Assembly (NCBI GenBank): GCA_027487485.1
Contig: JAIYDN010000100.1
Span: forward strand, 1 to 64,000
Origin: Planctomycetaceae bacterium
GTDB taxonomy: Bacteria > Planctomycetota > Planctomycetia > Pirellulales > Pirellulaceae
DNA length: 64,000 nucleotides
Reading direction: 5' to 3'
The notes beneath the pieces were generated by a model. It made no database searches. It had not been told where the DNA came from and saw only the letters and a program-made list of their open reading frames with translations. A program made the position numbers and the translations under genes. This document shows, piece after piece, positions 30,323 through 54,686 of the stretch; the stretch's first letter is position 1, and each line of letters starts with the position of its first letter.

Positions 30323-30375
30323 GAATAACTAACCTTTTGATTATCTCGCGGGAAACAAGTTGGTTTGGTCGAGGC

Positions 30376-31665: not shown

Positions 31666-31697
31666 AATTGCACCTATTCGATTTTTTCAAAATACGA

Positions 31698-34048: not shown

Positions 34049-35518
34049 TTAAAGGCTGTTTGGGACAGTTGGTTGCAAAGCGGTTTCAATTTCGTCACGA
34101 ATCGATCTGGCTAGTGATTCGATTGCTGAGTTTGGAAGCCCGTGCGGGCTGCTGCGGAGCCAAAGAACTAACTCGGTCCCGAAGGTCGAAGCCAGGATGG
34201 CAAGCTCCGTCCCACGGCGTGTCGGAGGAGCTGCAGCGAAGTCAAGAATTCGACAATCGCCCAATGCAAAGCCGTTTCGCCCTACCGCGCGACGCGTGGG
34301 AAATCGCCGGATCGGGGCCCCGATGTAACTAAAAACGAACGTGCCGGGGCGGCTCTTCTTCAGGATCCGATCATGGACCCAAACTGGATAGCTACGGATT
34401 CGGCCAAGGGTGTCCAAGAACAATCCAGCTAGACTCCAATCTTGAACCGCTTGCAATTCCGTCTTGATCGTCTTCGCGTTGGACCAAATGTCAGTGCAAT
34501 CCTGGCTCGCTCTTCGAAGTATCGAGTAACCGATTCCGTTATGGCAAGGCGTTCGCCCCTTGCTAGATGGACGCATGTTGATCGGAAGAATGGCCGTGAG
34601 CCAACACTTTCTGGAACCCAGTGCTATTCGTTTCTGTTTTTCGAAAGCACTCATGCAAGCCGCAATCAAAAACTCATTCTGAGAGCATTCCCGCGTTAGG
34701 GCTGCTTGCCTGATGTTTCGAGTGGTCTCTTCATCGAACTTGATGGGGAAAAGATGAAGTCCTTCAAGAACAGGATCTGCAGACTGGGGTCGGCTGGCCA
34801 TCGACGCAGATGTCGTTTTTTCTGTCGCCAACCTCGCTAAGTGAAGAGCCGGCCGTGTCATGTACTTGACTAACTCGATCAACATGAACTTGGTTGCGGT
34901 CCATCGACTTACCGGATGTGGGATGGAACGATCCAAGGCATGTCGAGTCGACAGATTTCCAATTTCTGTCGGCTTCGCGAAGCGGGGAGGCGAGCTGACA
35001 AAAGCATCTTCCTTCAGTTCGTTGCGTGTGGCACGCTCGTAGGCATCGAACATATCGGACGAAAACTCTAAAGCACCTATCCCATCCGAAACAGCATGAT
35101 GAAAGGTGCAAATCAGTTGCCAGGAATCACCCTTGGGGACCATTCCAATTTTGATCCCACATTCTCGACTCAAGTCGATGTATTGCCAGTCTTTGAAGCA
35201 TTCGGCGCTCCATGCTCCAGCGATCGGCTCTAACAAGTGAACCTTTGGAATCGATGAAGTCATTTGCCAAAACAGTTTTCGTGTTCTGGGATCCTCGGAC
35301 ATGATACATTGCGTTAAAGGATGCAATTGGATCGCTTCGCGCAGTGCCTGTTCCCAGATACTCACCTTGCATGGCCCTTGAATCGTCCAAACAAAAGTAA
35401 AAGTCATGGGATACTGGGGCGAGTCGTCTTTCGCCATGTACCACTCAAAGTGAGTTGGATCCGCAAAAGGTAGATGAGGCATAGCTAGGTTCTGTTGATT
35501 GTCTTGGGGATGACTCAT
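34049..35518 (-). CDS. HHxxxDG condensation/acyltransferase-like protein
   Basis: 489 residues. The motif HHAVSDG (about residues 139-145) matches the HHxxxDG active site shared by NRPS condensation domains, wax-ester synthase/DGAT and PapA acyltransferases. Surrounding layout fits: EWYMAKDDSPQYPMTFTFVW at the start (like the WES/DGAT N-terminus) and ILPINMRPS in the middle, then a C-terminal half with SYIGAPIRRFP. The family transfers an acyl group from CoA or a carrier protein to an alcohol or amine. It starts four bases after the HCDH-KR gene, so it may release or esterify the lipid made by this cluster. The acceptor is unknown. Confidence 0.8.
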   Translation of the reverse strand: MSHPQDNQQNLAMPHLPFADPTHFEWYMAKDDSPQYPMTFTFVWTIQGPCKVSIWEQALREAIQLHPLTQCIMSEDPRTRKLFWQMTSSIPKVHLLEPIAGAWSAECFKDWQYIDLSRECGIKIGMVPKGDSWQLICTFHHAVSDGIGALEFSSDMFDAYERATRNELKEDAFVSSPPRFAKPTEIGNLSTRHALDRSIPHPVSRWTATKFMLIELVKYMTRPALHLARLATEKTTSASMASRPQSADPVLEGLHLFPIKFDEETTRNIRQAALTRECSQNEFLIAACMSAFEKQKRIALGSRKCWLTAILPINMRPSSKGRTPCHNGIGYSILRRASQDCTDIWSNAKTIKTELQAVQDWSLAGLFLDTLGRIRSYPVWVHDRILKKSRPGTFVFSYIGAPIRRFPTRRAVGRNGFALGDCRILDFAAAPPTRRGTELAILASTFGTELVLWLRSSPHGLPNSAIESLARSIRDEIETALQPTVPNSL

Positions 35519-35522
35519 CGTT

Positions 35523-37976
35523 TTATCGAATGGCTAAAGGGATCTCATCAGGGGGTAACAGCAGGACACACCCGGAAACTTTGGCGCTTAAGAGTTCGAT
35601 GAAATGCGACGTGCCTTCTTCGATACTAATCAATTGATGGCCGTTGCGTCCGAGCGACCAAGCGCTGGCCGGACGAGCTGCCATGCCAACTTCACGCCAA
35701 CCCGGCCAAGCGATGGTAAGCACTTGAATGTCAGGCCATCGAGCCGAAAGCGATTCCGCAAAACAGGCTTGAAAACCATTCGCCGCTGCATAGTCCACCT
35801 GTCCGGCGCCCCCAAAGAATCCTACGACAGATCCACATTGGATAAACCATCTTGACTGACGACTGATTAAAGACGAAAGGCTTTTGCTCGCATCGATCTT
35901 GCATGTGAGCGTCCTGCGAATCGACTCTTCCGTTTTTCGAAGTAGTTTCGTGGTCTGCTCGAATCCCGCACCGTGCAGGATACCATCGATCGGAATGCCA
36001 CGTCGCTTTAACTCATCCGAAAAACTCTGCAGCTCCTTTTCCGAGGTGACATCGATCGGATGGTATTCAAAGTCGATGTTATGCTGTCGCAACCAATGGA
36101 GATTGCGAGACAATTCAAGTTCAGAATCACATCGGTTTGCTGCGGATGCGGGTGATAGACCCGAATTGAAGGCGTCTCGACAACGTTCTCGCTTGCGCTC
36201 TGCCAATTGTTGTTCCGACCAGTCGTAAAGCGACTCTTCCGGGATGTGGGTTCGACCTAGCAATACAAGCCGAACGCCGAACTTGCCTAAGCTGCGAGCA
36301 AGCTGAGCCGTAATGCCTCGTCCTCCACCGGAGACAATCCATGTTGAACCTCGCAGTTCCTGCGCCAGCCGAGCCTTCGACGGTTCCTGTTCCTGGCCGT
36401 CTGGAACATTGAGTTTCCAACCATGGTCGCAGGTTGACAACGGCATCAATTTGGGAATGCACCAAGCGTTGCGATCGCGATGGAGATGGAGCATGCTGTA
36501 GGCTTCTGCAAGGCCAGCATGTCGCTGGTCATTCGTTTGCATTGGTAACGGCGATTGCATTCCAGTAAGACGCGATCGTATCAAACTTGCAACATGAATC
36601 GCCGCGTTTGTTTCGTCAAAGTCAATCGACAAAACTTGGATTTGAACAGGGGATTCGACTGAGAGGTCGGGGCCAAATTGCTCCATCCAAACGGAACGCA
36701 ACATACTCGGTGTACCCCAGGCGGAACCGTGAAGCTGGCCATAGACATCCAAAGGTAGAATCACGATCAGTTGAATTGTCTTGCCCTGGGAGGAATGAGT
36801 GTGAAGCAAACGACGCAGAGCAGCGATTCTGTCTGCAAGCTCCTGAGTGGACAACACGGACGACACTTCCGCTGGTTCAATGACCCAGACAATCGGTTTG
36901 CCAACCTCGATCTGCTCGAGCGATACCGTGGACGCGTTGCTGTGTAGTTCTTTGGACAGTTCTCGTGAGAATAAAGATGAACCGAGAACTTGGAATTCCG
37001 AAACCTGCAACAAGCTGCTTTGCAACGGATCAGAATCGGAGGATAACTGCGTTGCGCTAGGCGGATTCTTCCATTCTTTCCATCCCAATCGGAAGGGTTC
37101 AAAAGTAGATTCGCTGGCTTGATTACTGGGCGACGAACTTCGCGATGAAAGTTGGATGGGTACAAGCGGAGCAGGCGGATCCGTTGAGTTCTCCAAAGTT
37201 CCTGACCACTGTTCGAGAAACGCTCGCGCTCGCCGAGTTCCTTCATCTTGATAAATCGAAAGCGCTCGGTCCAGAATGGTACTGAGCGTCGAGATACCAA
37301 TTTGTTGCATCATGCCGAACGGGCCAGTGGGCATTCCAGTAACCGCTCGCCAAGCGAGATCCACGGTTTCCGGAGAGGCCACTCCGCGATGTGCAAGTTC
37401 TAATGATTTGACCAACAAGGGATGAAGCAAGCTGTTAAAAACATAGCCCGGGAATTCGCGTAAAAGCCGGATCGGTGTCAGGCCTATCGACTCCACAAAC
37501 TGCTCTAACGCATCCATGGTCGCCGGACTTGTTCGCATGGTTGGCATGATATCCACCGCCGTAGCAAACCAGGGGGGAACATGAAAATGAAGACTGGCAA
37601 TCCGTTCCGGATGAGGCACTCCCTGGAAGACAGCGGATGGCAGAAAGTAGGAAGAGTTGGTCGTAAGAATCGCTTCCTTGGAACAGACCCTACTGATCTC
37701 GGTCACTAGGACCCGTTTCGCGGGCAAGTCTTCCACAATGGACTCAATGATCAAGTCCGCCGCCGCAATCGTTTCCATGCTCGTTGACCATTGGACGCGG
37801 GATCGATCCGTAGGAAAACCACGCCCGGTGTTCAAGGCTGGAAATTCTTGGCTCTCATAGAGGGCGCGTGAAATCGCAAGCCTTGACTCATCTTGCTCGA
37901 AGGCGATGGGATGGTAACCAGCCTCGCAAAGACAATGGAGGATTTGCCGACCGCATCGGCCCGCCCCCAAGACCAC
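35523..37976 (-). CDS. 3-hydroxyacyl-CoA dehydrogenase / ketoreductase fusion
   Basis: 817 residues from a GTG at 37976. Residues 1-290 are an HCDH: GAGRCG nucleotide site, ADLIIESIVEDLPAKRVLVT, and SLHFHVPPWFATAVDIMP with the catalytic-type His, then the C-terminal helical half (FPGYVFNSLLHPLLVKSLEL). Residues ~290-540 are a linker/structural KR-like part. Residues ~540-810 are a PKS-type KR: SGGGRGITAQLARSLG near 546-561, GSVVGFFGGAGQVDYAAANG with Ser, Tyr and Asn. The KR resembles that of the megasynthase. No KS or ACP is present, so it acts in trans. Coding-like sequence extends upstream of the GTG without a normal start (see findings). Confidence 0.85.
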   Translation of the reverse strand: MVLGAGRCGRQILHCLCEAGYHPIAFEQDESRLAISRALYESQEFPALNTGRGFPTDRSRVQWSTSMETIAAADLIIESIVEDLPAKRVLVTEISRVCSKEAILTTNSSYFLPSAVFQGVPHPERIASLHFHVPPWFATAVDIMPTMRTSPATMDALEQFVESIGLTPIRLLREFPGYVFNSLLHPLLVKSLELAHRGVASPETVDLAWRAVTGMPTGPFGMMQQIGISTLSTILDRALSIYQDEGTRRARAFLEQWSGTLENSTDPPAPLVPIQLSSRSSSPSNQASESTFEPFRLGWKEWKNPPSATQLSSDSDPLQSSLLQVSEFQVLGSSLFSRELSKELHSNASTVSLEQIEVGKPIVWVIEPAEVSSVLSTQELADRIAALRRLLHTHSSQGKTIQLIVILPLDVYGQLHGSAWGTPSMLRSVWMEQFGPDLSVESPVQIQVLSIDFDETNAAIHVASLIRSRLTGMQSPLPMQTNDQRHAGLAEAYSMLHLHRDRNAWCIPKLMPLSTCDHGWKLNVPDGQEQEPSKARLAQELRGSTWIVSGGGRGITAQLARSLGKFGVRLVLLGRTHIPEESLYDWSEQQLAERKRERCRDAFNSGLSPASAANRCDSELELSRNLHWLRQHNIDFEYHPIDVTSEKELQSFSDELKRRGIPIDGILHGAGFEQTTKLLRKTEESIRRTLTCKIDASKSLSSLISRQSRWFIQCGSVVGFFGGAGQVDYAAANGFQACFAESLSARWPDIQVLTIAWPGWREVGMAARPASAWSLGRNGHQLISIEEGTSHFIELLSAKVSGCVLLLPPDEIPLAIR

Positions 37977-38177
37977 GACTTTTCGAATTTTTTCAGACTG
38001 AGCGAAAATCGGATCGATCCCTTTACGAAAGTTCTGGTGCTCTAAATCAAAGGAGTTAGATTTTTCCGGAAAACCCTAGGCAGCATGTTATTTCCTTAGT
38101 TATCATTTGCCAGAGTCAGAAGATGGAGTTTCCAGACTACCTTTCACTTGTTTTCCTACTCCAGATTAAGACACTTG

Positions 38178-39767
38178 ATGAGCTACTTGCTGATGACGGG
38201 GGCCACAGGGCTTCTCGGAGAATACCTGCTTCGTGATCTAACTCTTGCTGGAGTCAACGTTTGTGTTGTCGCCCGAGGCCAACGCGATGCTTCTGCGGAG
38301 GACCGAATCGAGCGCATTATGGCGTACTGGGAACGCCAGCTAGGACGATTGCTACCTCGTCCTATTGTTTTGGAAGGGGATATCACCGCACCTTATTTTG
38401 GTCTTGATGATCAAGAAATAAATTGGATCTCTCAGAATTGTACTTCACTTCTGAATAACGCGGCGAGTCTGACGTTTGAATCCGGTCGTGAGGATGGCGA
38501 ACCATGGCGTTCCAATTTGACCGGTGTGCAGTACGCGATTGATTTGTGCAAGAAAACGGGAATCAACGAAGTGCACCATGTTTCGACAGCCTATGTTGCA
38601 GGGCTGCGAACCGGACTGATTCTGGAATCGGAGCTGGATCTAGGACAGGCCTTTGCCAACGAGTACGAAGCCAGTAAGTGTGCGGCCGAAATTGCAATGC
38701 GCGAAGCTGGATTTGGATCGTTAACCGTATTCCGGCCTGCGATCATCGTTGGCGATTCCACCAATGGCTACACCAGCACTTATCATGGTTTTTACGCTCC
38801 GTTGAAGGCCATGCATGCTTTGTTGAGCCTTCAGAAACTAACGGGCGATGAGTCGTCTGGTTCCAGCAGCAAAGTCCCGGTCCAGGCCATGTTGCGAGCG
38901 TTAGGGCTTGAGGGAAGTGAGACCAAAAATTTCGTCCCAGTAGAATGGGTTTCTGCTTGCATGGCGAAGGTCATTTCAACTTTGAAGCTTCACGGCCAGA
39001 CCTATCACCTGACGCCTCGGGATCGCGTCACTTCCATGCAGACCGCGAAAGCGATTCAAGCTGCTCTTGAAAAACATGTCTACAGTGCTAACAAAGCCGC
39101 TGATTCCAAGGGCCTTTCGGCTTCCGAGCCCATTCGAAAAGAAGACGGCCATGGCAACAATTTCCAAAGCAACGATTCGGATTGGGGAGCGTTGGGCGAA
39201 GCTTTTGCGTCCCAAATTTCTGTTTACAAAGAATACTGGCGCGACGATCCCGAATATTCGGACGTGAACACGCGAACCGCCATGCCTGAATTGCCTTGCC
39301 CTGACCTGACCTTCCAGGTCCTGCAAAAGATGTGTGACTTCGCGATCGAATCGGGATTTGGTTGGCCAAAACCCAAATGGAACCGACAAAAAACCACTTT
39401 GGCCACGTGGCTTCAAGGGAAAGGAATTGGCCTTCACGCCTCAGAAGAAACATTTGTGCCGATGTTCAATTTGATTGCCATCGGACCGGGAGGAGGCGAT
39501 GTTGCGGTTGGGCTGAAAGCTGACAAGTGGGAGTTCCAGTACGGAAAAGAACCTAACCTTGAAAGCTGGCTAATGCCATTTAACCTGCTGTTAGAAGAAA
39601 ATTCGCTTGAAGTTCTGGTCAGGTCTGGGCTTGCGATCGCAATTCCGGCCGATGGAGCTTCGGCGTCCGGTGAGGCCGAATTCTCCTTGAGTAACCTCAC
39701 AATGCTAGCTTCGAAACTTGACCATCAATTGGTCGCCAAGCATACTCTACAACCGGATAACACCTAA
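38178..39767 (+). CDS. Thioester-reductase-like SDR with C-terminal extension
   Basis: 529 residues from the ATG at 38178 (MSYLLMTGATGLLGEYLLRD). Residues 1-~340 match NAD_binding_4/male-sterility-type reductases: GATGLLG, LNNAASLTFES, VHHVSTAYVAG, and YEASKCAAE with the Tyr-x3-Lys pair, then VFRPAIIVGDS. Such domains reduce carrier-bound or CoA acyl thioesters to aldehydes or alcohols (as in HglB/HglD and fatty acyl-CoA reductases). Residues ~380-529 form a second region with no recognised family. An upstream ATG at 38148 is less likely. It heads the plus arm of the cluster and may release the product as an alcohol or aldehyde. Confidence 0.85.
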   Translation: MSYLLMTGATGLLGEYLLRDLTLAGVNVCVVARGQRDASAEDRIERIMAYWERQLGRLLPRPIVLEGDITAPYFGLDDQEINWISQNCTSLLNNAASLTFESGREDGEPWRSNLTGVQYAIDLCKKTGINEVHHVSTAYVAGLRTGLILESELDLGQAFANEYEASKCAAEIAMREAGFGSLTVFRPAIIVGDSTNGYTSTYHGFYAPLKAMHALLSLQKLTGDESSGSSSKVPVQAMLRALGLEGSETKNFVPVEWVSACMAKVISTLKLHGQTYHLTPRDRVTSMQTAKAIQAALEKHVYSANKAADSKGLSASEPIRKEDGHGNNFQSNDSDWGALGEAFASQISVYKEYWRDDPEYSDVNTRTAMPELPCPDLTFQVLQKMCDFAIESGFGWPKPKWNRQKTTLATWLQGKGIGLHASEETFVPMFNLIAIGPGGGDVAVGLKADKWEFQYGKEPNLESWLMPFNLLLEENSLEVLVRSGLAIAIPADGASASGEAEFSLSNLTMLASKLDHQLVAKHTLQPDNT

Positions 39768-39850
39768 CTGCCTTTCTTCCCACGAGACACCAACCGCATT
39801 TTCACCATGAGTTTCCTTGGTTTCACCAAATCAGGAGGCTTGTAAAGCTT

Positions 39851-39885
39851 TATTCACCCAAGCGGCGACTGCCGAATAGTGAATA
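39851..39885 (+). promoter_or_regulatory. Nested hairpin upstream of the KS-CLF gene
   Basis: TATTCAC (39851-39857) pairs with GTGAATA (39879-39885), enclosing CGGC (39863-39866) and GCCG (39871-39874) with a GACT loop. No T-tail follows. It sits in the only long gap (39768-39986) of the plus arm and may be an operator, attenuator or processing site. Confidence 0.4.
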
Positions 39886-39986
39886 TTGCAGGTAAAAATT
39901 AGTTGTATTGTTTTGGCGAAAGATAGGATTTTTCCAACTGTTGACCAGGCAAGGATGCTGCCAAACTTAGAACGCTACTCCTGAGC

Positions 39987-42776
39987 ATGCATCCAGTTTC
40001 CTCTTTTGAACCTATTGCGATCATCGGGCGCGGCTGCCATTTGCCTGGTGCTAAGTCCATCAGCGAATACTGGGAACGCATTCGAAATGATTCCCCAACC
40101 ATCCGCGAAATTCCCGCAGAGCGATTCGATCGGGAAATGTTTTATGATGCGACGCAAGGGGTGGATTTCAAGACGTACTGCTCTAAGGCTTGCTTAGTCG
40201 AGCCGGTATCACTTGAAAAACGATTGGACCTTCCCGCGAAATGGAAGCATCATCCAGAAACGGTTTTCCCAGATTTGATCTCGGTAACTCGCGATGCTTG
40301 CAACGACGGTGGTCGAGAATTAGAAGGCTGGGCCGGTGCTCGCGGTGGCGTCTTTGTGGGGCACACTCGGGGCGGCTCGCTTTCGGGCGACTTCGCCTAT
40401 GCGAGCTACATCGCTCAAGCGGCAGAGCTTTTAGATGATTCAGTGGCATCGCTTTTGTCCGCCTCGGGCACAAAGAGCGCCTTCGACAGGAAGCGTTGGA
40501 AGGACTCGTTGATTCAATCGGTCCGCCGCGATATGCCCAAGAAGGATTCTTCCGGGGGCCCGTCTCTGGGGGCACCGGTCGCCGCGCTGGCTGTGGCGGA
40601 AAGTCTTTGCTGGGATGGCCCTTTTATGGCTTTCAACGGCGCGTGTGCCTCGTCGCTTCAAGCGCTTCATGCTGCGGTTCTTTCTCTCCAAGCAAGGCGC
40701 ATTGATATCGCCGTTGCTGCAGGAGCCTCCTGTTGCCACAGCGATTCGTTGATCTTGTTTGCTCAAGCGAGATCGTTGAGCGCTAAAGATACAAGACCTT
40801 TTGATGAGGATGCCGACGGACTGATTATTGGCGAGGGGTGCGTTGTCCTGATGTTGAAGCGTCTCTCGGATGCTTTGAAGGACGGCGATACCGTTCATGG
40901 TGTTATACGGGGCGTAGGAGTCGCTTCGGACGGTAAAGGCAAAAGCCTATGGGCACCAAGAAAAGAAGGGCAAATGAAAGCGATCGCCCGCGCATACGCG
41001 TCGCGTGATGCGATGCGTGCGATTCAGTATGTCGAAGCTCACGCAACCAGCACCAAACTTGGCGACGCAACGGAAATGGAAGCACTGGCGGATTCGTTTT
41101 CCGAGGTGATCGAGAAAGGACGCAAAGTCCCGGTCGGAAGCGTCAAGGCGATTGTTGGCCATACTCTTGAATCCGCAGGCTTAGCCGGCTTGCTCAAGTC
41201 GATCCTGTGCATGGAGAACGGTTTGTATCCAGCGCATCAACGACTGAATAATTTGAGCCAGCGCATTCCCTGGAACGATATTCCGTTCTTCGTACCTCGC
41301 GAAGTTTCTACATGGACGCCCAACGAACAAGGTGAACGCTGGGCCGCAATCAATGGTTTTGGAATTGGTGGCTTGAATGCGCACGTCGTCGTGCAGTCGG
41401 GGGAACTGGCTGAACGAAAACGATCGATTTCCATGCCATCCCAGGAAAATCGTCCATCCAATGGAAGTGCTGCAAAGTCTTCCCGTCCTTTTGAAATCGC
41501 AGTCATCGCAACTGGTTGTATCCTACCAAACGCACTCGACTGGGATTCGTTTCGTCGCATCATCCGTGAAGACCGAATAGGCACTCGGATGCTATTGGAT
41601 TCAAGATGGATATCACCACCTTCCAATCCCAATACAGCCATTAGCACGCTTGGAGCAACCATCGGCGGATTCACGGATGATTTTGTTTACGACTGGCGGC
41701 GCCACAAGGTTCCACCGAAGCAACTCGCAAGCGCAAGCCCGTTGCAGTTTATGATTCTAGAAGCGGTCGATCAGGCGATTCGCCCTTCAGGATTACTTGA
41801 GTCTGCACAGAATCGGGCGAACACCGGAGTTGTCGTTGGCACGATCTTCGGAGGGGATTTTTCGAACCAATTGCAAATGGGACTTCGTGTTCCCGATATC
41901 CAACGCCGACTGCGCAGTCTCTGGCAATCGGAAGGCATGGATGCGGATGCGATCGAACAAGCTCTGGATTTGTTTGGAAAAAAGATCATCCAAGCCATGC
42001 CAGCTTTTTTTGATGAGACCGGAAGCTTCACCAGCAGTTCGCTCGCCTCCAGAATCACTAAGACATTTGATCTGATGGGTGGCGCAGTCGCTGTCGACGC
42101 AGCTCATGGGGCGTCCGGGGCTGCTTTGATGTACTGCGTCGATCAATTGCAACAAACCGAAAATGAATTCATGGTGTGCATCGGCGCTCAACAGGATATG
42201 GGCCCGATGAAGTTTGAAGGTTGGTCTGCGAATGGTTGGCTCGGTTCTAAGCATGGCCAATCGGCACTCCATCCAGATTCCGATGGAACGTTCCCCGGCG
42301 AAGGTGCCGCAGTCATGCTCTTGCAAAAAGTTCGGCATGGGCAAACGCCTCTATCCAAGCCGCTCGCTTATGTTCGCGGAATTGGCACCAGCATGGATAC
42401 GAACGGGGATGTTAGCTTCTCACGGTCCGCCAGACGTGCAAACCTGGAAGCAGAACATCGAGCCCAACCCGCAAATGTACGATTCTCCCCGATGGGTGTG
42501 CCTGCGATCGATGACCCTTGCAAAAAAGGAGTTCGTGAGACGTTCGGTTCAATCGATGGTGAATCGGATGAGCCGATCTTTAAGACGGCGAATGACTCAT
42601 TTGGTCACCTAACCGGTGGGTCTGGTATGGTCGAGTGTCTAGCGAGCATTGCTCACGCCGCCCTGGAGGATTCCAAAGCGGCCAGTCCAATGACTCGGAA
42701 CATGGTGCAAATCGGAAGCCCATGGGAATGCATTTACAGCGTTATTATCGATGTGTTGAAGGAAAAAAATGATTAG
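39987..42776 (+). CDS. Ketosynthase - chain-length-factor didomain protein
   Basis: 929 residues. KS: residues ~8-475 with catalytic Cys220 (GACASS), His352 (VEAHATSTKLG) and His392 (GHTLESAG). CLF-like second KS: ~500-920, beginning FEIAVIATGCILPNA; the Cys position reads VDAAHGAS (His707 near the Cys site), so it cannot condense and should act as partner. The pair resembles PfaC-type KS-CLF but lacks the DH domains of PfaC. The N-terminal part contains an insertion (residues ~100-190, GHTRGGSLSGDFAY) typical of PUFA KS. It overlaps the ACP gene by eight bases. Confidence 0.92.
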   Translation: MHPVSSFEPIAIIGRGCHLPGAKSISEYWERIRNDSPTIREIPAERFDREMFYDATQGVDFKTYCSKACLVEPVSLEKRLDLPAKWKHHPETVFPDLISVTRDACNDGGRELEGWAGARGGVFVGHTRGGSLSGDFAYASYIAQAAELLDDSVASLLSASGTKSAFDRKRWKDSLIQSVRRDMPKKDSSGGPSLGAPVAALAVAESLCWDGPFMAFNGACASSLQALHAAVLSLQARRIDIAVAAGASCCHSDSLILFAQARSLSAKDTRPFDEDADGLIIGEGCVVLMLKRLSDALKDGDTVHGVIRGVGVASDGKGKSLWAPRKEGQMKAIARAYASRDAMRAIQYVEAHATSTKLGDATEMEALADSFSEVIEKGRKVPVGSVKAIVGHTLESAGLAGLLKSILCMENGLYPAHQRLNNLSQRIPWNDIPFFVPREVSTWTPNEQGERWAAINGFGIGGLNAHVVVQSGELAERKRSISMPSQENRPSNGSAAKSSRPFEIAVIATGCILPNALDWDSFRRIIREDRIGTRMLLDSRWISPPSNPNTAISTLGATIGGFTDDFVYDWRRHKVPPKQLASASPLQFMILEAVDQAIRPSGLLESAQNRANTGVVVGTIFGGDFSNQLQMGLRVPDIQRRLRSLWQSEGMDADAIEQALDLFGKKIIQAMPAFFDETGSFTSSSLASRITKTFDLMGGAVAVDAAHGASGAALMYCVDQLQQTENEFMVCIGAQQDMGPMKFEGWSANGWLGSKHGQSALHPDSDGTFPGEGAAVMLLQKVRHGQTPLSKPLAYVRGIGTSMDTNGDVSFSRSARRANLEAEHRAQPANVRFSPMGVPAIDDPCKKGVRETFGSIDGESDEPIFKTANDSFGHLTGGSGMVECLASIAHAALEDSKAASPMTRNMVQIGSPWECIYSVIIDVLKEKND

Positions 42777-44148: not shown

Positions 44149-44169
44149 CCTTAATGGCTTGGTTAAATT

Positions 44170-47100: not shown

Positions 47101-50100
47101 GCTAATGCTCTGAATCTGGAGGGACGAAGTGCAGCGGACCCAGGTTGGGTTCGATTCGGGGCAGATACCATTTCGGAACTTCTGAGCGACTTGCAGGCAT
47201 GCGTCCAGAAGGGGGGGGCAGCACAGAATCACGAGAACCGCCGTACTAGCGACTGGTCGACTTACCGATATCGATTGAACATAGTTGCATCGGACGAAAA
47301 GGCCTTGTCGACCAAATTGGGGATGGCAATTCATGCACTGGATCAAAATCGATCCTTAAGTAGCCTGCAAAACCAAGGTGTCTTCTTTGCACAGAAGGGT
47401 AGTTCGCCCAATGCTGAGATTGCATTCGTTTATTCTGGCCAAGGGTCGCAGTACCCTCGTATGCTTGAGTCGCTGGTCGCGTCGGATCCAGATTGCAAGC
47501 TGGTGAAGGGGCAATTGGATAGCATTGTTCAAACATTGGGACTGGATTCTTTCGACGCGATTGTGAAGGATGCGCCGGGGCTATTGGGGGTTGAACTTCG
47601 TAGAACCCAGCTTGGAATTCTTGGATGTGAAGTTCTGCTTACCACCAAGCTGCAAGCTCTGAACATTGTCCCAACTCGGATTGCTGGCCATAGCTTTGGC
47701 GAATATGGAGCCATGTTTGGGGCGGGCTGTTGGGATATTCGTACCGCTATGCAGGCTTCGGTCATGCGAAGTGATTCCGTAAGCCAAGCGGAAGTTATTC
47801 CTGGAAGATTGCTTTGTGCATTCTGCGATGAAAAAACGGCGAACTTTGCTTGCAACAGCACGGATGGGCAGTGTTTTGTTGCCAACTGCAATACAGCCAG
47901 CCAAACCGTGATCGGTGGAACAGAAGCTGGACTTGAACTGGCTAGAGCGTTTTTGGAGAAGAACCGTATTCGTGCAGTTCCCTTGAATGTGCCATTCGCA
48001 TTCCACACGCCCCTGATGAAGTCTGCCTCGACGGTAATGACCGGCTTTGTTGGAAATCTGTCTATCCAAGCTCCCACACGGCCACTGTTTAGCAGCGTAT
48101 CCGAAAGTTATGTTCAGGATGTTGGAAAGCTGAGACTCAATCTGGTAGAGCAGTTTGTGAAACCTGTTCGCTGGACTCACATGCTTGAGTCCCTTTCTAA
48201 CGACGGTGTCCATTTGTTTATCGAAGTTGGACCGGGGCAGGTTCTAACCGGGTTGAATCGAAATGTCTTTAAGGACCGAGAAGAGATCATTTGCGTGGCT
48301 ACAGACGATCCCAAGTCCGACTGCGCTCATCAATTGGTTTACGTTGGCGCCGCAGTCGAGATTTTTCAGCACCTGTCGTACGCTAGCCAAAATTCAATGC
48401 AATGGACTTTAGGCCAAGAACCTCAAAGCTCTCCCACAACTCAAGCATGCAAGACCGTCGATCCAATAAGCAAAGAAAGCCAAAGTCGAATGCAGATTGA
48501 TGATTCAACTAAGAAACAGAACTCGTTTGTGGACACGATTCAGCTAATCGCGACCCAACCGGTGAAGTCATCTGTTTCGAAGTATCGTTCGGATCTGCTC
48601 GCTCAAAGCGACATTCTTCTAGGGATCGAGTATCAGCCGCAATTGAATTCGTTGGCTGCTCAAGGTCAAGTTACCCCTGAATCGTTGTTGAGATGGAACA
48701 TTGAGCTCCAGGAGAATCGCAGCGGTGGCCAAAGTCATTACGTCTCTTTTCCAACGGCCAAGGATGACGGATTAGCTTTCCATGGGTTCCACGATCAAGT
48801 TGCAGCTAAACCCAACGCAGCTTGGGCCCAACTGCATTTCTTCCGGCACGCTCCCAAAGGATACTTGAAGCATGTTGTTGCCGGTTCCCAAGGCCAAATC
48901 GGAGGACTGCTTGGGATGAATGAAGCCGGAATTTCCATCTCCAGCATTGCAATCTCTTCGCGCAAAAAGACTTTCCAGCCAGGACTTCTACAGTCCATTG
49001 TGACGCTTCGCGTGTTGCGAGAATCGGACAATTTAGAATCTGCGGCCAAAGTGTTAGAGGGTCTTGCTCGAACTGGCCATTGGGGCGTATTGGTTCTCGA
49101 CACCAAATCGAAACGCGGCGCTTACATCGAGTACGACGACAATCGCTTTGATTTACTTCCGATCAGCGAATCATTTTTTGTTTCCGCAAAAGGAATGTCC
49201 GAAAAATCTCGAACTCGCAATGAAGTCAACGGCCATCCAACATGCGATCCTTCGCAATTGTTGCGTCAACTGAACGGTTCAAGCAGCAACATGGAAGCCG
49301 TTTGGAGCAAGGTGACGACTCGAACGATCGCCTCTTTTGCCGAATCACGAATGGCCGAAGAGCCAAATCAGATGGAGCTGGAATCGCATCGGGCGATTCT
49401 ACTTTCCCCACAAAACTACCATGCACTCGCTTCGATTCAGCTGGGTGGGCATCCTAAGACAGTGGATCAGCCTATCGAGTTGCACTTTAGCTCGTTCCTC
49501 AACCCGGCGATTGAAAGGAATCTCCCCAAGGTGCATCAAAACCGAAATGAAATGGTGCCCAGCGCACAGCCGGCAGTGAATCTTCCTGCAGCCAACGCTG
49601 ACATGAATGCGTTTGTTATCGAGCCGTCCGAGCTAGCTGCCAAAGGTAACAGCATCAACGACAATCCTCCGTTGGGTGACACCGATTTGATCTGTACCCG
49701 ACTTGGGCTTCGTTTGATCGAAATGCCGATCGCTTCGGAAGGCTCTGAAACGGATCTTATTCGCAACTCGAAAGTGATCCTGTTGGGGGGCGGCAAAACC
49801 AGTCAATTGCTGTCCCAGCGTTTAGCTGCACGCGGCGCTCAAGTTGCGATTCTGGAGATCTCTTCCGACGCACAATCTGTCTTGTCTCAATGGAATGATT
49901 GCGTCTCTCGAATGGGGCAGCCGGATCATCTGTTTTTCGTGCAGCCATCGACCAACAATGCGTCGGGAAATGCGTTGGTCGATGCAAGTCGTTGGCAAGA
50001 ATCAGTTCTAACGCCTTATCTTGTCGCCCAACAATGGTTTTCTGCATTCCCGGACTCCACCCGCGATCGTCCAATGCTATTCGTTTCCGTAACAAGCATG

Positions 50101-53100
50101 GGCGGAGATCTAGGGTTAGCGGGTCAATCCGATCAGCATTATGGTGGTGCATGGAGCGGCTTGTCGAAGGCCATGTTTCTAGAACGATGTGTCACCGTTG
50201 GGCCCGATCTTCGAACCCATTCGATCGATTTCGATCAAGATTGCTCCGACGAATCGAAAGTGGAAATGATTTTCCGCGAGATCGATTCGAAAGAAAGAGA
50301 AGCTGAGCTCGCTTATCGTAATGGCAAGCGGCACGTTTTGCGGATGGTGCATGCCCCGCTATCGCTTTCTTCCCAAGAGAAGACACCGTTTGGTAAAGAG
50401 GGATGCTGGATTGTTACGGGCGGAGCTCGCGGTGTGACTGCTGAAATCGCAAAGCGTATCGGTAAACTTCATGGTGGCACAATCCATCTGGTAGGTTCGA
50501 GTCCCCTACCTGAAGTTCCACAAGAATGGCTTTCTCTGGATCCAATGCAAACGCGTAAGCTTCGATCCAGCATTGTTCGGAAGGCAATTGAAGAAAAGAA
50601 AACTCCGGCGGATGTTTGGAACGCAACGGAGAAGGCTATCGAAATCGCAAAGAATCTGCTGAGCATGTCGGCTCAGGGGATCCGAATTCAGTACCACGCT
50701 TGTGACATATCTCGATTGGACAATGTTGCGCGGTTGGTCGATCAAATTCGCGGACAAGGTGAGCCTATCGTGGGCGTTGTCCATGGTGCTGGTTACGAAA
50801 AAGCCAGTCGTTTCAGTGGGAAAAAGCTACCGCTGGTCATGCGGACACTGGAATCCAAAGTGCTCGGCGCGATCCATTTAATGCAAGCTACCGCGACAGA
50901 TCCTCTTCGCTCCTTCGTCGCCTTCACCTCCATCAGCGGACGTTACGGTGCTATTGGGCAAACGGATTACGGTACAGCGAACGAGTGGCTAGCAAAAGTG
51001 GTCGCCCGCTATCAAACCAAACGCCCTGAAGTGCACGCCGTGGCCATGGATTGGCATTCGTGGGACGAAGTCGGAATGGCCGCTCGACCTGAAACGAAGC
51101 ACTCGAAGCTCTTGGCTACAATGCGATTCATGCCGGTAAACGAGGGTGTGGATCACTTCATGAAAGAACTGGTCCATCGAACTTTCGAAAACGAAGTGAT
51201 TATTACCGATTGGCGATATCACAAAATGTTCTTTGCTGATCCGGTAACGCCCCTGCCGACAGAAAGTTCGGTGGCTCCCCCGACTCAGGCGCAACAGAAT
51301 GTTCCGAAACAGACTTCACCTAACCACGAGGTTATAGCGAGCTCCGAAGTTTCCTTTAGCTTGGACCAGGTGTCAGCTGATCGAACCCAGGAATTATCGC
51401 TTGCAACCTTGGGTGATGTTATTCTTGTGGGCAACCATCCTGTCGGACGGGCCCTTTGCAACGAACTTGCCGAACACGGGGTTAGCTACCGCTGGATGCC
51501 TTGGCTTGCTGCGACGGAATCGGAAGAACAATCGCTGCTTCCGTTCGCCAAATCGGGGCATACCACCCTGTTCTTTTTGAGTGAACTTGATTCGGAAAAT
51601 CAAATGTCGCGAGGGTGGCAGCATCATCTCCGATCTGTGAAACGAAGCCAGTCATTCCATGCATGGTTGGCGTCATCGCGAGCGTCTGCATCGGATTCCT
51701 CGACTGTGCGAATTGTTGTCGCAGCAAATCTGTCTGGGTTTCAATCCAACGGTCATGGGTTCAAGAACCCCAACAGCTTGCTGCACCTGGCTATCCAAGA
51801 AGCTGCTTCTGACCGATCCATTGAATTGAAGGTGGTTGATCTTGCGACGGATATGTCCGCGTCCGCAAGAGCAAGCTGTTTGATCCGTGAGTCCATGATC
51901 GCTGATGGTTCGAAACTTGTTTCCCACAACCGCCAAGGCAGGTTTCGAATCCAAAAGAATTTTGGTGGTCCGTCTTTGGCTCGCCAATCGGAATTGAACA
52001 AACTCTCCGATAACGCCAAGTCGGTCGGTTTGTTGGTCCATGTTTCCTCGGCGGCACCACGTTCACAGTACGTGAAGCCAAGCTTTGTCGGGAAGGATCT
52101 TGAAACCAAGACCTTGGAGATTCGCTCCGAAGATCTGCGTGCCAACGATCCTTCTGGCTCTACAGGTCGGTTGAGTCAACTGCAGCGTCAGGTGAGCCTC
52201 ATCCGAAAAGAATGCGGTGATCGTATTCGCGAAGTTTATTTCGTAAACGACACTACCTTGGATGCTTCTCAGCAAGTTTTGTTGGTCGCAAGCCTCATGG
52301 AATTGACTCGACCCGATCAACTTACGCACTTCACGGTTTTAAGCGACTCGGAGTCCCATCAGGATGGAGCAGATCTTCCGTCATCTGTCGAGGCATGGAT
52401 GCAATGGTACAAGCAAGATCGACCAGAAGTGTCAGCTCGAATTTTGGCGATTACAAAGAAGAGTTCTTCGGATAAATCATCGTGGAGCTTTTCTCCAAAG
52501 CGGTTGGTAAACACAAGCCAAAGCGACGTCATTGAATATCAAATTGGGTTAGTACCCAAGGATGATCCTTTTTTATCGCAGCATTTGTTCCGTGGGCGTC
52601 CTTTGTTGCCCATCGTCGCTATTGCCGAGATGTTTTTGCAAGTGGCTGCCGAGTGCAAACTTGTGCCAAGCGGCACAAAGATTTCCGTCGAGCAGTTGCA
52701 GATCGTCAACGGACTGAAGTTCCTTGATGATGAACCTAAGAATGTCCGAGTTCAGATCAGGAAAATGGACGTTGGATTCGACGCGAAGTTGGTCTACTCG
52801 TTTGTCGACTCGAAGGGCAAGTTAATGGATGACAGTCGAGTCATCGCCAAAGCGGTTTTGAATGCATCCGTTGAGCCTGAATGCAAAACTAAGATCGTAT
52901 CGGATGTCGGAGCCGTTTGGCACGGGGTTGAGTACCCCGGCTCAGAAATGATTATTCATCACGGCCCTGCCTTTCGTTGTCTAAGCGAAGTTCAGTACGT
53001 TGAAGGCGGGATAGTGGCTCGATTGCACGTCAAAGCCAACGAAGAGCTCGGTGGAGCACGCGAAGGGTCTTGGATTTCTCCCATGGGGATTATCGACAGT

Positions 53101-53349
53101 TCACTTTTCGCGTGTGGAATCCTGGCTTGGATTCGCGACCCATCAATGGCGGCAATTCCGCTGGGGATAGAATCGATGTCGATCGTTGGTGCATGCAACG
53201 TTGGCGAACAGCTTTTCGCTTCCATCGAATTAAAGTCATTTGAAAAATCGAAAGCAATCTTCGATATAGATATTCGAGATCAAGCAGGTGGTTGCGTTGC
53301 CTTGCTTCGAGGATTCCAAGCCACACTTGTTTCACATAATTTAGGGTAG
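44170..53349 (+). CDS. Iterative PKS/PUFA-synthase-like megasynthase (KS-CLF-AT-AAT-like-KR-DH)
   Basis: 3059 residues. KS ~8-475: Cys216, His348, His389. CLF ~512-963: the Cys position reads Ser715-Gly716-Gly717, so inactive. AT ~1085-1375: GHSFGEY with Ser1175 and His1279 (FAFHTP). ~1470-1790: Ntn-hydrolase/AAT (peptidase C45)-like, with GGQSHYVSF near 1519-1527 and LGMNEAGISI from 1581; the nucleophile Cys is not evident. KR: structural part ~1850-2070, catalytic ~2080-2355 (TGGARGV, SISGRYGAIGQTDYGTANEW). ~2380-2780: unassigned, partly Rossmann-like. DH ~2800-3055: HLFRGRPLLP (His2805, HxxxGxxxxP) and Asp2976. There is no ACP, ER or TE; ACPs and enoyl reductase are the neighbouring genes. 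Domain order is by eye; the AAT assignment is the least certain. Confidence 0.9.
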   Translation: MPLPFHQQPIAIVGMGCRLPGSSSLDAYWKLIESGGSALGELPPSRLNQRLYFDPNTCSRPRTLTRLGGIVDPYLGLRSNHHLTSKDIAAADPAQLELVSVTEDAIAHAGWTDDSFAGKKTGVYVGHTRGSGRTGELVYRSLVSETAQWLNEVPSFAAMGPEERRMVIDAIVQQTKMDYPGIDRRHPERLEAFQGSYLISRAFNLNGPAVSLNAACASSLIALSYATQALRLGAIDVAVVGGGSFVEFDSLVLFSRAGSVSKTGSRPFDAGADGLVAAEGYVILLLKTLEKAIQDGDSIAAVIRGTGYSSDGKGKSLWAPRKEGQVLAIERAFGQTLSKKRVQYVEAHATSTAVGDAIEMSALSEAFSSVVEGGAPRIPIGSVKANIGHTLETAGLAGLVKAVLAIQHKTIPPVAYVGELNSKVDWANSPLVVPPAKAAWESPSQSHPRRVGVNAFGIGGLNAHIVIDEYCTTYRDQYFEPDCELNAPARSNAGTSSASDRNRTSSAHRNEPVAVIGLGVISPAGFETDSFWKSVVNGQVWLSSPPAERLKLDDSRWDSVKSDGSAKLLGGFLKDYQYDWRKHKVPPKQVEAADPLQFMLLDAVDQAIRNTGMKADQIPRERTGVVIGSIFGGEFGNQLQMGLRLPEFSEKLQNQLLKQGWPTEKIEDTIDAYQSLLLARMPALIDETGSFTSSTLASRITKTFDVMGGGSAIDSGGISGLAALDLCINVLRTGDSDLMICAAGQRSCGQMVFDQMMDARRLNTSGSYSVGNKNSEGLVPGEGVAVLVLKRLSDAQRDGNRIYSVIHSIETARQEKLQDAYVQVDRALVRQLAATSCTTLQYVESCANGTNEDSHELESISQVFGPLTTKPIPVCSLKEQVGETFGAASLMAVVRASLALSQGTIPAAAKATKRDRYDNVVCPAVSNPIGDGTTDFPSSVVVHAACENSVSGLLLTNVAALQNSVKPPETKVAISTNANALNLEGRSAADPGWVRFGADTISELLSDLQACVQKGGAAQNHENRRTSDWSTYRYRLNIVASDEKALSTKLGMAIHALDQNRSLSSLQNQGVFFAQKGSSPNAEIAFVYSGQGSQYPRMLESLVASDPDCKLVKGQLDSIVQTLGLDSFDAIVKDAPGLLGVELRRTQLGILGCEVLLTTKLQALNIVPTRIAGHSFGEYGAMFGAGCWDIRTAMQASVMRSDSVSQAEVIPGRLLCAFCDEKTANFACNSTDGQCFVANCNTASQTVIGGTEAGLELARAFLEKNRIRAVPLNVPFAFHTPLMKSASTVMTGFVGNLSIQAPTRPLFSSVSESYVQDVGKLRLNLVEQFVKPVRWTHMLESLSNDGVHLFIEVGPGQVLTGLNRNVFKDREEIICVATDDPKSDCAHQLVYVGAAVEIFQHLSYASQNSMQWTLGQEPQSSPTTQACKTVDPISKESQSRMQIDDSTKKQNSFVDTIQLIATQPVKSSVSKYRSDLLAQSDILLGIEYQPQLNSLAAQGQVTPESLLRWNIELQENRSGGQSHYVSFPTAKDDGLAFHGFHDQVAAKPNAAWAQLHFFRHAPKGYLKHVVAGSQGQIGGLLGMNEAGISISSIAISSRKKTFQPGLLQSIVTLRVLRESDNLESAAKVLEGLARTGHWGVLVLDTKSKRGAYIEYDDNRFDLLPISESFFVSAKGMSEKSRTRNEVNGHPTCDPSQLLRQLNGSSSNMEAVWSKVTTRTIASFAESRMAEEPNQMELESHRAILLSPQNYHALASIQLGGHPKTVDQPIELHFSSFLNPAIERNLPKVHQNRNEMVPSAQPAVNLPAANADMNAFVIEPSELAAKGNSINDNPPLGDTDLICTRLGLRLIEMPIASEGSETDLIRNSKVILLGGGKTSQLLSQRLAARGAQVAILEISSDAQSVLSQWNDCVSRMGQPDHLFFVQPSTNNASGNALVDASRWQESVLTPYLVAQQWFSAFPDSTRDRPMLFVSVTSMGGDLGLAGQSDQHYGGAWSGLSKAMFLERCVTVGPDLRTHSIDFDQDCSDESKVEMIFREIDSKEREAELAYRNGKRHVLRMVHAPLSLSSQEKTPFGKEGCWIVTGGARGVTAEIAKRIGKLHGGTIHLVGSSPLPEVPQEWLSLDPMQTRKLRSSIVRKAIEEKKTPADVWNATEKAIEIAKNLLSMSAQGIRIQYHACDISRLDNVARLVDQIRGQGEPIVGVVHGAGYEKASRFSGKKLPLVMRTLESKVLGAIHLMQATATDPLRSFVAFTSISGRYGAIGQTDYGTANEWLAKVVARYQTKRPEVHAVAMDWHSWDEVGMAARPETKHSKLLATMRFMPVNEGVDHFMKELVHRTFENEVIITDWRYHKMFFADPVTPLPTESSVAPPTQAQQNVPKQTSPNHEVIASSEVSFSLDQVSADRTQELSLATLGDVILVGNHPVGRALCNELAEHGVSYRWMPWLAATESEEQSLLPFAKSGHTTLFFLSELDSENQMSRGWQHHLRSVKRSQSFHAWLASSRASASDSSTVRIVVAANLSGFQSNGHGFKNPNSLLHLAIQEAASDRSIELKVVDLATDMSASARASCLIRESMIADGSKLVSHNRQGRFRIQKNFGGPSLARQSELNKLSDNAKSVGLLVHVSSAAPRSQYVKPSFVGKDLETKTLEIRSEDLRANDPSGSTGRLSQLQRQVSLIRKECGDRIREVYFVNDTTLDASQQVLLVASLMELTRPDQLTHFTVLSDSESHQDGADLPSSVEAWMQWYKQDRPEVSARILAITKKSSSDKSSWSFSPKRLVNTSQSDVIEYQIGLVPKDDPFLSQHLFRGRPLLPIVAIAEMFLQVAAECKLVPSGTKISVEQLQIVNGLKFLDDEPKNVRVQIRKMDVGFDAKLVYSFVDSKGKLMDDSRVIAKAVLNASVEPECKTKIVSDVGAVWHGVEYPGSEMIIHHGPAFRCLSEVQYVEGGIVARLHVKANEELGGAREGSWISPMGIIDSSLFACGILAWIRDPSMAAIPLGIESMSIVGACNVGEQLFASIELKSFEKSKAIFDIDIRDQAGGCVALLRGFQATLVSHNLG

Positions 53350-53351
53350 TC

Positions 53352-54116
53352 ATGATCAACATCACGAATCGAGTCGCGTTAGTTACAGGTGGTTCACGTG
53401 GAATCGGAAGAGCGACGGCGCTGAAGCTAGCGCAGTCTGGCGCGGATATCGTCTTGAATTACGTTACCAGCCGTGGAGCTGCACTCGAGACCGCGCGTGC
53501 CATCAGGGCCATGGGAAGACGCGTATGGATAATCAAAGCCGATGTTAGTCAGGAGGATGATGTCGACGAAATGGTTTCCTATGTTGATCGTGAAATCGGT
53601 CAACTGGACATCATTGTAAGCAACGCCGCAACGGGCGGTTTCCGTCAATTGCTGGATTCCAAGGCGAAGCACTTTGAGCATGCGATGGCGACCAATGTGA
53701 TGTCGCTGATTTACTTGGCTCGGGCGAGTAAGCATTTGCTGGCGAACCGACCTTACCGGGGCAAGATTGTGACGATATCAAGTCACGGGGCCGATATTGC
53801 ACTTCCAATGTACGGGTTAATTGGCGGTTCCAAAGCTGCCCTCGAAAGTATTGCTCGTCATTTGACATTGGAGCTTGGGGGGCTGGGAGTCAACGTGAAC
53901 GTTGTCAAAGCTGGTCTCGTGCGAACCGATTCGACAGAACGCCTGCCAGGTGCTGACCAGATGTTTGAGGGCCGAGTTCACAAGTCCATGATGGGAACGC
54001 GAACGCTGGAGGCGGAAGATGTCGCGAATGTGGTCCTATTCCTTTCAAGTCCGCTGAGCGACCTGATTCAAGGACAGACGATTACCGTCGATGGCGGTTC
54101 AGCCATTCACATCTAA
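53352..54116 (+). CDS. FabL-type enoyl-ACP reductase (SDR)
   Basis: 254 residues. Nucleotide site VTGGSRGIGR (11-20), then NNA-like SNAATGG, and the active site ISSHGADIALPMYGLIGGSK with Tyr154 and Lys161 spaced Tyr-x6-Lys, the spacing of FabL (Bacillus subtilis) rather than the Tyr-x3-Lys of FabG. The C-terminal QGQTITVDGG also matches FabL. It would reduce the enoyl-ACP double bond, supplying the missing ER of the megasynthase. It starts two bases after the megasynthase stop. A ketoreductase role cannot be excluded from sequence alone. Confidence 0.85.
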   Translation: MINITNRVALVTGGSRGIGRATALKLAQSGADIVLNYVTSRGAALETARAIRAMGRRVWIIKADVSQEDDVDEMVSYVDREIGQLDIIVSNAATGGFRQLLDSKAKHFEHAMATNVMSLIYLARASKHLLANRPYRGKIVTISSHGADIALPMYGLIGGSKAALESIARHLTLELGGLGVNVNVVKAGLVRTDSTERLPGADQMFEGRVHKSMMGTRTLEAEDVANVVLFLSSPLSDLIQGQTITVDGGSAIHI

Positions 54117-54179
54117 AATTGTTCGACATGGAAAGCAAGGGAGCTGCGTGCAAGCACAAAACGAAAGCGATAAAGTGTG

Positions 54180-54686
54180 ATGGGAGTGGCCGATTTCATT
54201 TGGAAAGTCGCTTTACCTCGCGAATTCGCAATCAATGCCGTCGTCAACGGAGCAATTGCCTATCTGCTCTTTTGGCACAGAGTGGACGTTCCCCTGAATG
54301 GATGGAGCGGTCTCGCATCTATGTTGGTTCCCATGAGTTTTTTTCTGCCTTGGCTGACAAGTTTTTTTGGTGTGGCTAGCTTTGCCTGGAACCCTTCGGT
54401 TCAGCAAGCGAGTATCAACCTGAGTCGCGACCTGAATAAGCCAATTCCCGAAAAACTGAAACCTTGGAAATGGGGTTCGTACGCCATCGGCTTGGCCTTC
54501 GTACATGCCTTGATTTCTTTAGGAACAACTCTCTTGTTTTTGAAGGCGGTGGATTCGGCCGGTTTTTCCCCACGGCTAACTGGCTGGGGGAGTGTCTTAA
54601 GCATTGCGATCGGATCTGGGCTTGCCGCATGTCTTTTCCATCGTCGGTCCATTTTGAAAGCCAACCAGGCATTTCTCAGGGCTTAA
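54180..54686 (+). CDS. Small membrane protein, unknown
   Basis: 168 residues from the ATG at 54180 (a GTG at 54177 precedes it). Four hydrophobic segments: ~14-31, ~43-68, ~100-120 and ~133-152. A polar loop (NLSRDLNKPIPEKLKPWKWG) separates the second and third. No family is recognised. It starts 63 bp after the FabL-type gene on the same strand and may belong to the lipid cluster, though nothing in it shows a lipid role. Convergent with the next gene. Confidence 0.65.
   Translation: MGVADFIWKVALPREFAINAVVNGAIAYLLFWHRVDVPLNGWSGLASMLVPMSFFLPWLTSFFGVASFAWNPSVQQASINLSRDLNKPIPEKLKPWKWGSYAIGLAFVHALISLGTTLLFLKAVDSAGFSPRLTGWGSVLSIAIGSGLAACLFHRRSILKANQAFLRA

Follow-up and report, generated by a model that had tools for sequence, protein, structure and literature searches.

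A divergent Pfa-like lipid synthase cluster of a planctomycete with an embedded, apparently non-catalytic Ntn-hydrolase domain

We analysed a stretch of 64,000 nucleotides (the window) from contig JAIYDN010000100.1 of Planctomycetaceae bacterium, family Pirellulaceae (GCA_027487485.1; an assembly of 7.49 Mb in 114 contigs, 99.98% complete). Between positions 34,049 and 54,116 it holds seven genes in two divergent arms, which an earlier note, made from the letters alone, had described as a cluster resembling the Pfa synthases of polyunsaturated fatty acids (PUFA). When checked in the window sequence, the cluster proved real and divergent, with all seven open reading frames where that note had placed them. 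The distances between the genes are, in order, 4, 171 (the divergent one), 219, -8, 21 and 2 bp, so that the description as mostly overlapping or within 21 bp holds for four of the six gaps. The closest relatives of the cluster are held in metagenome-assembled genomes of planctomycetes, including Pirellula sp. and Planctomycetaceae. The features are as follows.

34049..35518, minus strand: acyltransferase-like protein of the condensation/PapA/wax ester synthase (WES) fold, 489 aa, with an HHAVSDG motif.
35523..37976, minus strand: 3-hydroxyacyl dehydrogenase fused to a ketoreductase (HCDH-KR), 817 aa as called (3HCDH_N 4.3e-30, KR 9.4e-27).
38148..39767, plus strand: stand-alone thioester reductase (TR), 539 aa (NAD_binding_4 3.3e-38).
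39987..42776, plus strand: ketosynthase and chain-length factor in one protein (KS-CLF), 929 aa (ketoacyl-synt 4.7e-68, two stretches).
42769..44148, plus strand: tandem acyl carrier protein, 459 aa, with three acyl carrier (ACP) domains (PP-binding 8.5e-31, three stretches).
44170..53349, plus strand: 3059-aa synthase with KS, CLF, acyltransferase (AT), a putative relic C45 Ntn domain, KR and dehydratase (DH), by Pfam and NCBIfam matches and motifs.
48595..49449, plus strand: within this synthase, the putative relic C45/AAT Ntn-hydrolase domain, residues 1476-1760 (NF040521, Pfam AAT, alignments).
53352..54116, plus strand: FabL-type enoyl-ACP reductase (ENR), 254 aa (NF005975 the best NCBIfam model; Tyr-x6-Lys at residue 154).
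54177..54686, plus strand: small protein of 169 aa, hydrophobic by eye, 60 bp after FabL.

Searches of the cluster proteins with Pfam and NCBIfam profiles, together with motifs, bore out the domain labels given earlier to all seven proteins, the acyltransferase being weak by sequence and FabL staying below its cut-off. They also agree with the proposal that Pfa-like functions are spread here over separate proteins and joined by a TR and an acyltransferase-fold protein. The earlier list was incomplete in two respects, as it lacked the C45 Ntn domain of the large synthase and the 169-aa protein. The latter has no match in Pfam. It is 36% identical to a 168-aa protein adjoining FabL in genome G384, which in turn shows a 39% match to a 171-aa protein after the synthase of G203. 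Since these counterparts adjoin FabL or follow the synthase, 54177-54686 is probably an eighth gene of the cluster.

Overall the profile support lies well above what chance would give. The stronger of the two ketosynthase matches reaches 3e-80, the other being that of the 929-aa protein; the KR matches are at 4.3e-28 and, in HCDH-KR, 9.4e-27, and the AT match is at 2.1e-20. An active-site Cys with two His is present in both KS domains. In neither CLF is the Cys kept; its place is taken by His in the 929-aa protein and by Gly in the other. The alignment of the KS-CLF protein with ORF10 of 6riw is a single stretch over residues 183-734. The AT carries a GHSFG motif, and the three ACP serine motifs (GIDS) lie at residues 157, 285 and 415 of the 459-aa protein. 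The DH is of the double-hotdog type of polyketide synthases (PKS; 1.3e-7, 5.7e-7), PS-DH and PKS_DH_N being the only DH matches of the 3059-aa synthase at E<=0.1. Before the KR of this synthase lies a stretch that we take, by eye and recall, to be pseudo-KR-like. The FabL-type protein matches short-chain dehydrogenases/reductases of the ENR type at 3.1e-58. FabL model NF005975 is the best of 235 matching models, at 252.9 bits and thus below its cut-off of 328, and the protein is 68% and 69% identical to proteins beside the synthases of G045 and G384. Three genes of the phosphopantetheinyl transferase (PPTase) family occur elsewhere in the genome, the frames of 260 and 261 aa being candidates by length.

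The most interesting part of the locus is apparently the Ntn domain between AT and KR of the 3059-aa synthase (residues ~1476-1760), which seems dead in the window and alive in many relatives. NF040521 matches the whole protein with E 1.6e-8 (34.3 bits) and the excised domain with E 5.8e-10 (39 bits, below the 85-bit cut-off); Pfam AAT gives E 9.5e-4 (19.3 bits, below cut-off). In all four relatives tried (L070, L085, L096, L109) NF040521 exceeds its cut-off with 98.6-143 bits. A profile, A1, was built from 15 Ntn domains (12 embedded, 3 stand-alone), all selected for the presence of the Cys. Pfam AAT matches all 15, and in the PDB the profile finds acyl-CoA:isopenicillin N acyltransferase (2x1d) at 1e-12. 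Weak matches in the same list to designed proteins, to a pore-forming toxin and to a biotin carboxylase were taken as chance and ignored. Invariant among the 15 are the Cys, N-x-D, N-H, H-S and R-x-D, which are presumably the catalytic residues of the literature on C45 enzymes, NAAA and ceramidases. The window domain reads GGQSHY for GC and HGFHDQ for HGANED and has no N-H pair; both the N-terminal Cys nucleophile and the NxD of active C45 enzymes are thus absent. Of the 328 positions of the A1 profile only 46-238 match it, so that both ends are missing or unrecognisable. In the lineage of the window all eight rows (the window and P0113-P0119) have Gln at the nucleophile position. Because the Cys is replaced by Gln, further conserved residues are lost, the profile match is partial and the Gln runs throughout the lineage, the domain is, judged by its residues, a non-catalytic relic.

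Relatives of the synthase have a full-length version of the domain at the same place, between the AT (or the ACPs) and the KR. The Ntn domain of G384 has matches in 120 of 396 genomes of the order at E<=1e-4, many of them stand-alone C45 proteins by frame length. The A1 profile matches in 137 of 392 genomes of the phylum at E<=1e-10, mostly with stand-alone proteins among the matches listed. Embedded copies are not confined to the order, as a further family of its class has them too (G628, G702, G732, G694, G566). From these matches and other loci, 46 embedded copies were scored, each from a different genome and without that of the window; all 46 share their frame with a match to AT, KS, KR or DH. 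The strict Cys...NxD pattern is found in 26 copies and the Cys motif in 28, if G702 (read as GC...HAANED) and G189 (Cys by eye) are added. Seventeen have another residue at the Cys site (Ser, Met, Gln, Ala, Glu, Gly), the aligned residue being uncertain in the most decayed of them, and the copy of G292 ends before the site. A Ser at this position could still be a nucleophile. Outside this score stand long-frame matches in G119, G127 and G143, which share their genus with the non-Cys G043, as well as ~1,000-aa frames in G411 and G406. Among database proteins the motif is present in P0124 and absent in P0118 and P0120-P0123. The stand-alone members match the strict pattern in seven of eight cases; in the remaining one (G566) the Cys is recognisable by eye.

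Given this motif, 28 of the 46 synthases are predicted to cut themselves in two, and the ancestral embedded domain was probably an autoproteolytic acyltransferase/hydrolase. Tentatively, and with somewhat less than even confidence, we suggest that in many planctomycete Pfa-like synthases a working C45 Ntn domain would cut at Gly-Cys into KS-CLF-AT and Ntn-KR-DH halves. The freed N-terminal Cys would then act on the growing acyl chain by transfer or hydrolysis, as a built-in release of the amidase type, and the lineage of the window would have lost this chemistry while keeping the domain shell. For 26 synthases a tree was made from the KR together with its 230 preceding residues. It requires two changes of the Cys/non-Cys label, and its starred branches force these two. 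The group of the window and that of G109, G072, G037 and G018 are separate there. Sister to the window's group are G045 and G384, both with the Cys (support 94/91, not starred). That loss of the nucleophile was coupled to the gain of a TR was considered and rejected, as a TR and the Cys motif occur together in G045 and G384.

Two further observations concern stand-alone relatives. The embedded copy of G566 has Gly for Cys (L161, G566:C1:3265000-3284999), and elsewhere in this genome (L154/L159, G566:C1 ~3834000) lies a stand-alone relative of 501 aa that has the Cys and, by eye, an ACP-tail-like stretch before it; this protein is possibly a trans-acting release enzyme. Genus g140 (G374, G385, G214, G409, G366, G280) has stand-alone C45 proteins of 348-399 aa with the Cys, related to the embedded domains. 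No large synthase was found beside them in the stretches of five genomes (all but G409), and in G374 only a 27% ketosynthase-like piece is near.

Turning to the other cluster proteins, the TR shows the motifs GATGLLG and YEASK, a match to TIGR01746 at 9.4e-27 (below cut-off) and MxaA (4u7w, 6.3e-17) as nearest solved chain. Its more likely start appears to be ATG 38178, because the relatives in L029-L031 begin at the equivalent MSxILMSG. The HCDH-KR frame is conserved for ~25 codons upstream of its GTG 37976 (window 37976-38160). These codons include no ATG, GTG or TTG, and the relatives P0003 and P0005 begin in this region with M or L; the true start is probably further upstream. In a tree of 36 KR rows, with long branches flagged, all ten HCDH-KR rows group together (100/100), away from both KR1 and KR2 of the synthases. 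The idea that this KR is the relocated second KR of related synthases is thus unsupported.

The acyltransferase-like protein is weakly recognised by Condensation (4.1e-4) and WS/DGAT (7.4e-4), both below cut-off, and its 18.5 bits against the wax ester synthase/DGAT model TIGR02946 do not reach the cut-off of 309.95. The HHxxxDG motif (HHAVSDG) and the predicted two-lobed fold of the PapA/condensation/WES superfamily are clear. The solved members of this fold that were listed are 9-16% identical to it; the closest is AzeD, titled 'dehydratase', and PapA5 is also close.

The split layout pointed out in the note is not peculiar to this locus; it is one of several arrangements, as other clusters fuse the parts differently. 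G045 and G384, from two genera other than that of the window, have the same order of TR, KS-CLF, ACP, large synthase and FabL, with an additional 255-aa gene before FabL that is a PPTase by Pfam in G045. Elsewhere a single synthase of 3.4-4.0 kaa with in-line ACPs has a TR nearby (G018, G043, G037, G160, G109); FabL is labelled beside the synthases of G043, G037 and G160, and none was labelled in the stretches examined around those of G018 and G109. In G071 and G133 TR and FabL lie beside 2.8-kaa synthases. Synthases with both enzymes nearby are found repeatedly, in several of the order's families. Counted irrespective of any neighbouring synthase, TR relatives at E<=1e-30 are present in 181 genomes out of the 396 of the order.

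The HCDH-KR and acyltransferase genes divergent from the TR are a rare addition. Both HCDH and KR were found in 11 of 112 protein-database matches (P0001-P0011, that of the window included; best 7993 candidates scored), P0004 and P0007 being N-terminally short. Among the matches listed in 60 genomes of the family only the window's own spans both. In GTDB contigs three HCDH-KR loci were found: two (L029, L030) have the acyltransferase, again divergent from the TR, and the third (L031) ends before it. Beyond the acyltransferase, L029 and L030 continue with an ABC-transporter-like pair (by sequence start) and a protein without Pfam match, L030 also with a PPTase by Pfam.

From its gene content we conclude that the cluster is probably a variant of the Pfa-like lipid synthases and not a canonical PUFA synthase. 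We propose, with a probability of roughly 0.6, a Pfa-like type I complex for lipid synthesis that would work iteratively and build a mostly saturated or hydroxylated long-chain acyl group. The AT would load malonyl units on the ACPs, activated by a PPTase from outside the cluster, and the KS-CLF pairs would set chain length. KR, DH and FabL would reduce each cycle to a mostly saturated chain, possibly keeping some hydroxyls. HCDHs are generally S-specific, KRs generally R-specific; our guess is that HCDH-KR may set or invert one 3-hydroxy/3-keto centre. The TR would release the chain as aldehyde or alcohol, and the condensation/PapA-fold protein would join a chain to a hydroxyl or amine acceptor. 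Because the embedded Ntn domain seems to be a dead remnant, the 3059-aa synthase would be expected to stay one uncut chain. The TR-KS-CLF-ACP-synthase-FabL order kept in G045 and G384 may be counted in favour of this proposal, as may the divergent HCDH-KR and acyltransferase genes of L029 and L030.

Several results weigh against this proposal. A phmmer search of the relic alone against the PDB gave no match at E<=1 and its single-sequence structure model was unusable (pLDDT 30.8), so its fold is assigned by homology only. The KR of HCDH-KR stands in a clade of its own, and the part given to this protein is a guess. The acyltransferase-like protein matches condensation, PapA and WES proteins as well as one titled 'dehydratase', and among 19 of its relatives Condensation is found in nine and PapA_C in three. 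Ester formation is therefore not established. The note had suggested a reduced or esterified lipid; a reduced or acylated product is likelier than a PUFA because a TR and an acyltransferase-fold protein are added. The relic, finally, is 82-94% identical to its counterparts in four close relatives, close to most neighbouring domains, and may therefore keep a structural role.

This last point leads to an alternative, a degenerate Ntn domain serving as scaffold or docking surface and selected though catalytically dead. The frame has remained open and the domain is retained despite the two label changes in the synthase tree. In P0120, P0121 and P0123, however, the Ntn domain is only 16-20% identical to that of the window, compared with 18-26% for the preceding linker, 20% for what lies between KR and DH and 62-67% for KS and KR, a divergence that resembles relaxed constraint. 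We regard such a role as possible, though less likely than not.

An N-acyl or amine-linked lipid, in which the TR aldehyde is aminated and the condensation-fold protein makes an amide, as for zeamine and fabclavine, appears unlikely. The zeamine layout has a TR beside a Pfa-like synthase. In the PDB the A3 profile finds by sequence NRPS (nonribosomal peptide synthetase) chains of the condensation/epimerisation type best and PapA5 lower. The related cluster of G043 (L064/L065) includes a class III aminotransferase, an AMP-ligase and a condensation-like protein. No aminotransferase or AMP-ligase was found, however, among the seven cluster and nine flanking proteins, the only part of the genome searched for them, PapA_C does occur in the relatives of the acyltransferase-like protein and PapA5 is also close in fold. 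The G043 cluster, whose product is perhaps different and nitrogen-bearing, holds in addition a Rieske oxygenase, a metallo-beta-lactamase-fold protein and an MMPL transporter; the clusters of G018 and G160 resemble it by gene size and position.

A true PUFA synthase with the missing steps encoded elsewhere is very improbable: despite tandem ACPs and KS-CLF pairs as in PfaA/PfaC, the four proteins matching the PfaA model TIGR02813 score 548.7, 249.7, 143.7 and 65.9 bits (cut-off 1010.1), PfaD (TIGR02814) has no match in the assembly, Pfam finds no FabA-type dehydratase/isomerase in the 3059-aa synthase (E<=0.1) or the other six proteins (E<=0.001), and the cluster has a PKS-type DH, a TR and an ENR of the FabL type. 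The same TIGR02814 search gave matches in three of 14 control genomes, over cut-off in one. The absence of PfaD from the assembly and of a FabA-type dehydratase from the cluster thus strengthens the conclusion of a lipid other than a PUFA.

Outside the cluster, three genes on the minus strand (28082-33758) adjoin the acyltransferase gene, where L029 and L030 have the ABC-transporter-like pair. They encode an M50 peptidase-HlyD protein, an HlyD protein and a GAF-HlyD protein and are possibly an export system; a role as exporter of the cluster product is not established. A relative of the M50 protein lies also ~3 kb from the G702 synthase (L162). At 59611-63600, minus strand, a 1329-aa protein kinase with many WD40 repeats is encoded.

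Planctomycetes hold many uncharacterised lipid and polyketide clusters. The locus ties a recurring type (TR and FabL with a Pfa-like synthase, often with a condensation-like protein) to concrete chemistry that can be tested by lipidomics. A C45 domain embedded in a type I lipid synthase would add a new kind of catalytic domain to such enzymes. Where intact it predicts self-cleavage of the synthase, with the window's copy as a natural dead comparison.

With at least one KS, ACP and KR the locus falls under the broad sense of 'secondary lipid' fatty acid synthase/PKS clusters in section 5 of Shulse and Allen 2011 (PMC3098273). There 20 cluster types are distinguished, and Gemmata obscuriglobus (Type I) and Planctomyces limnophilus (Type J) are the planctomycetes named. 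An antiSMASH 'hglE-KS' cluster was counted in a Pirellulaceae strain (PMC13190842). In the open-licence literature, taken by the titles and abstract openings of the papers listed, neither the seven-gene order with a known product nor any account of this gene order or of an Ntn/AAT/C45 domain in a Pfa-like synthase was found.

Pfa synthases in general have a FabA-type DH/isomerase. The window has a FabL-type ENR in place of PfaD and a PKS-type DH in place of that domain, two KS-CLF pairs and, in addition, the TR, HCDH-KR, the acyltransferase-like protein and the apparent relic. Common to it and the Types A/B of PMC3098273 are KS, CLF, AT, tandem ACPs, KR and iterative lipid assembly. The synthase of heterocyst glycolipids (hgl, Type F) is likewise Pfa-like with fused KS-CLF-AT and, in that source, without DH/isomerase domains of the pfaC kind, and thioester reductase is among the abbreviations of an hgl figure legend in PMC11804610. 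The window differs by its PKS-type DH, HCDH-KR and FabL-type ENR.

The lipid arm of zeamine (zmn10-14; PMC3547906) resembles the window in its Pfa-like synthase, stand-alone TR and separate ketoreductase; a condensation protein (zmn19) is in that cluster too, a FabA-type dehydratase is named for Zmn11/PfaC, and for Zmn14 a reductive release from such a synthase has been proposed, which is a precedent for the one suggested here. The window cluster differs in having no aminotransferase, NRPS or PfaD-like protein. With the PapA5/condensation/WES superfamily the acyltransferase-like protein shares HHxxxDG and predicted fold at the low identity given above. Acyl-CoA:isopenicillin N acyltransferase is a stand-alone, catalytic and self-cleaving C45 Ntn enzyme. 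In contrast to it, the window's copy has no Cys and matches the profile only in part, and what the enzyme and the embedded segment presumably share is the ancestry of the domain.

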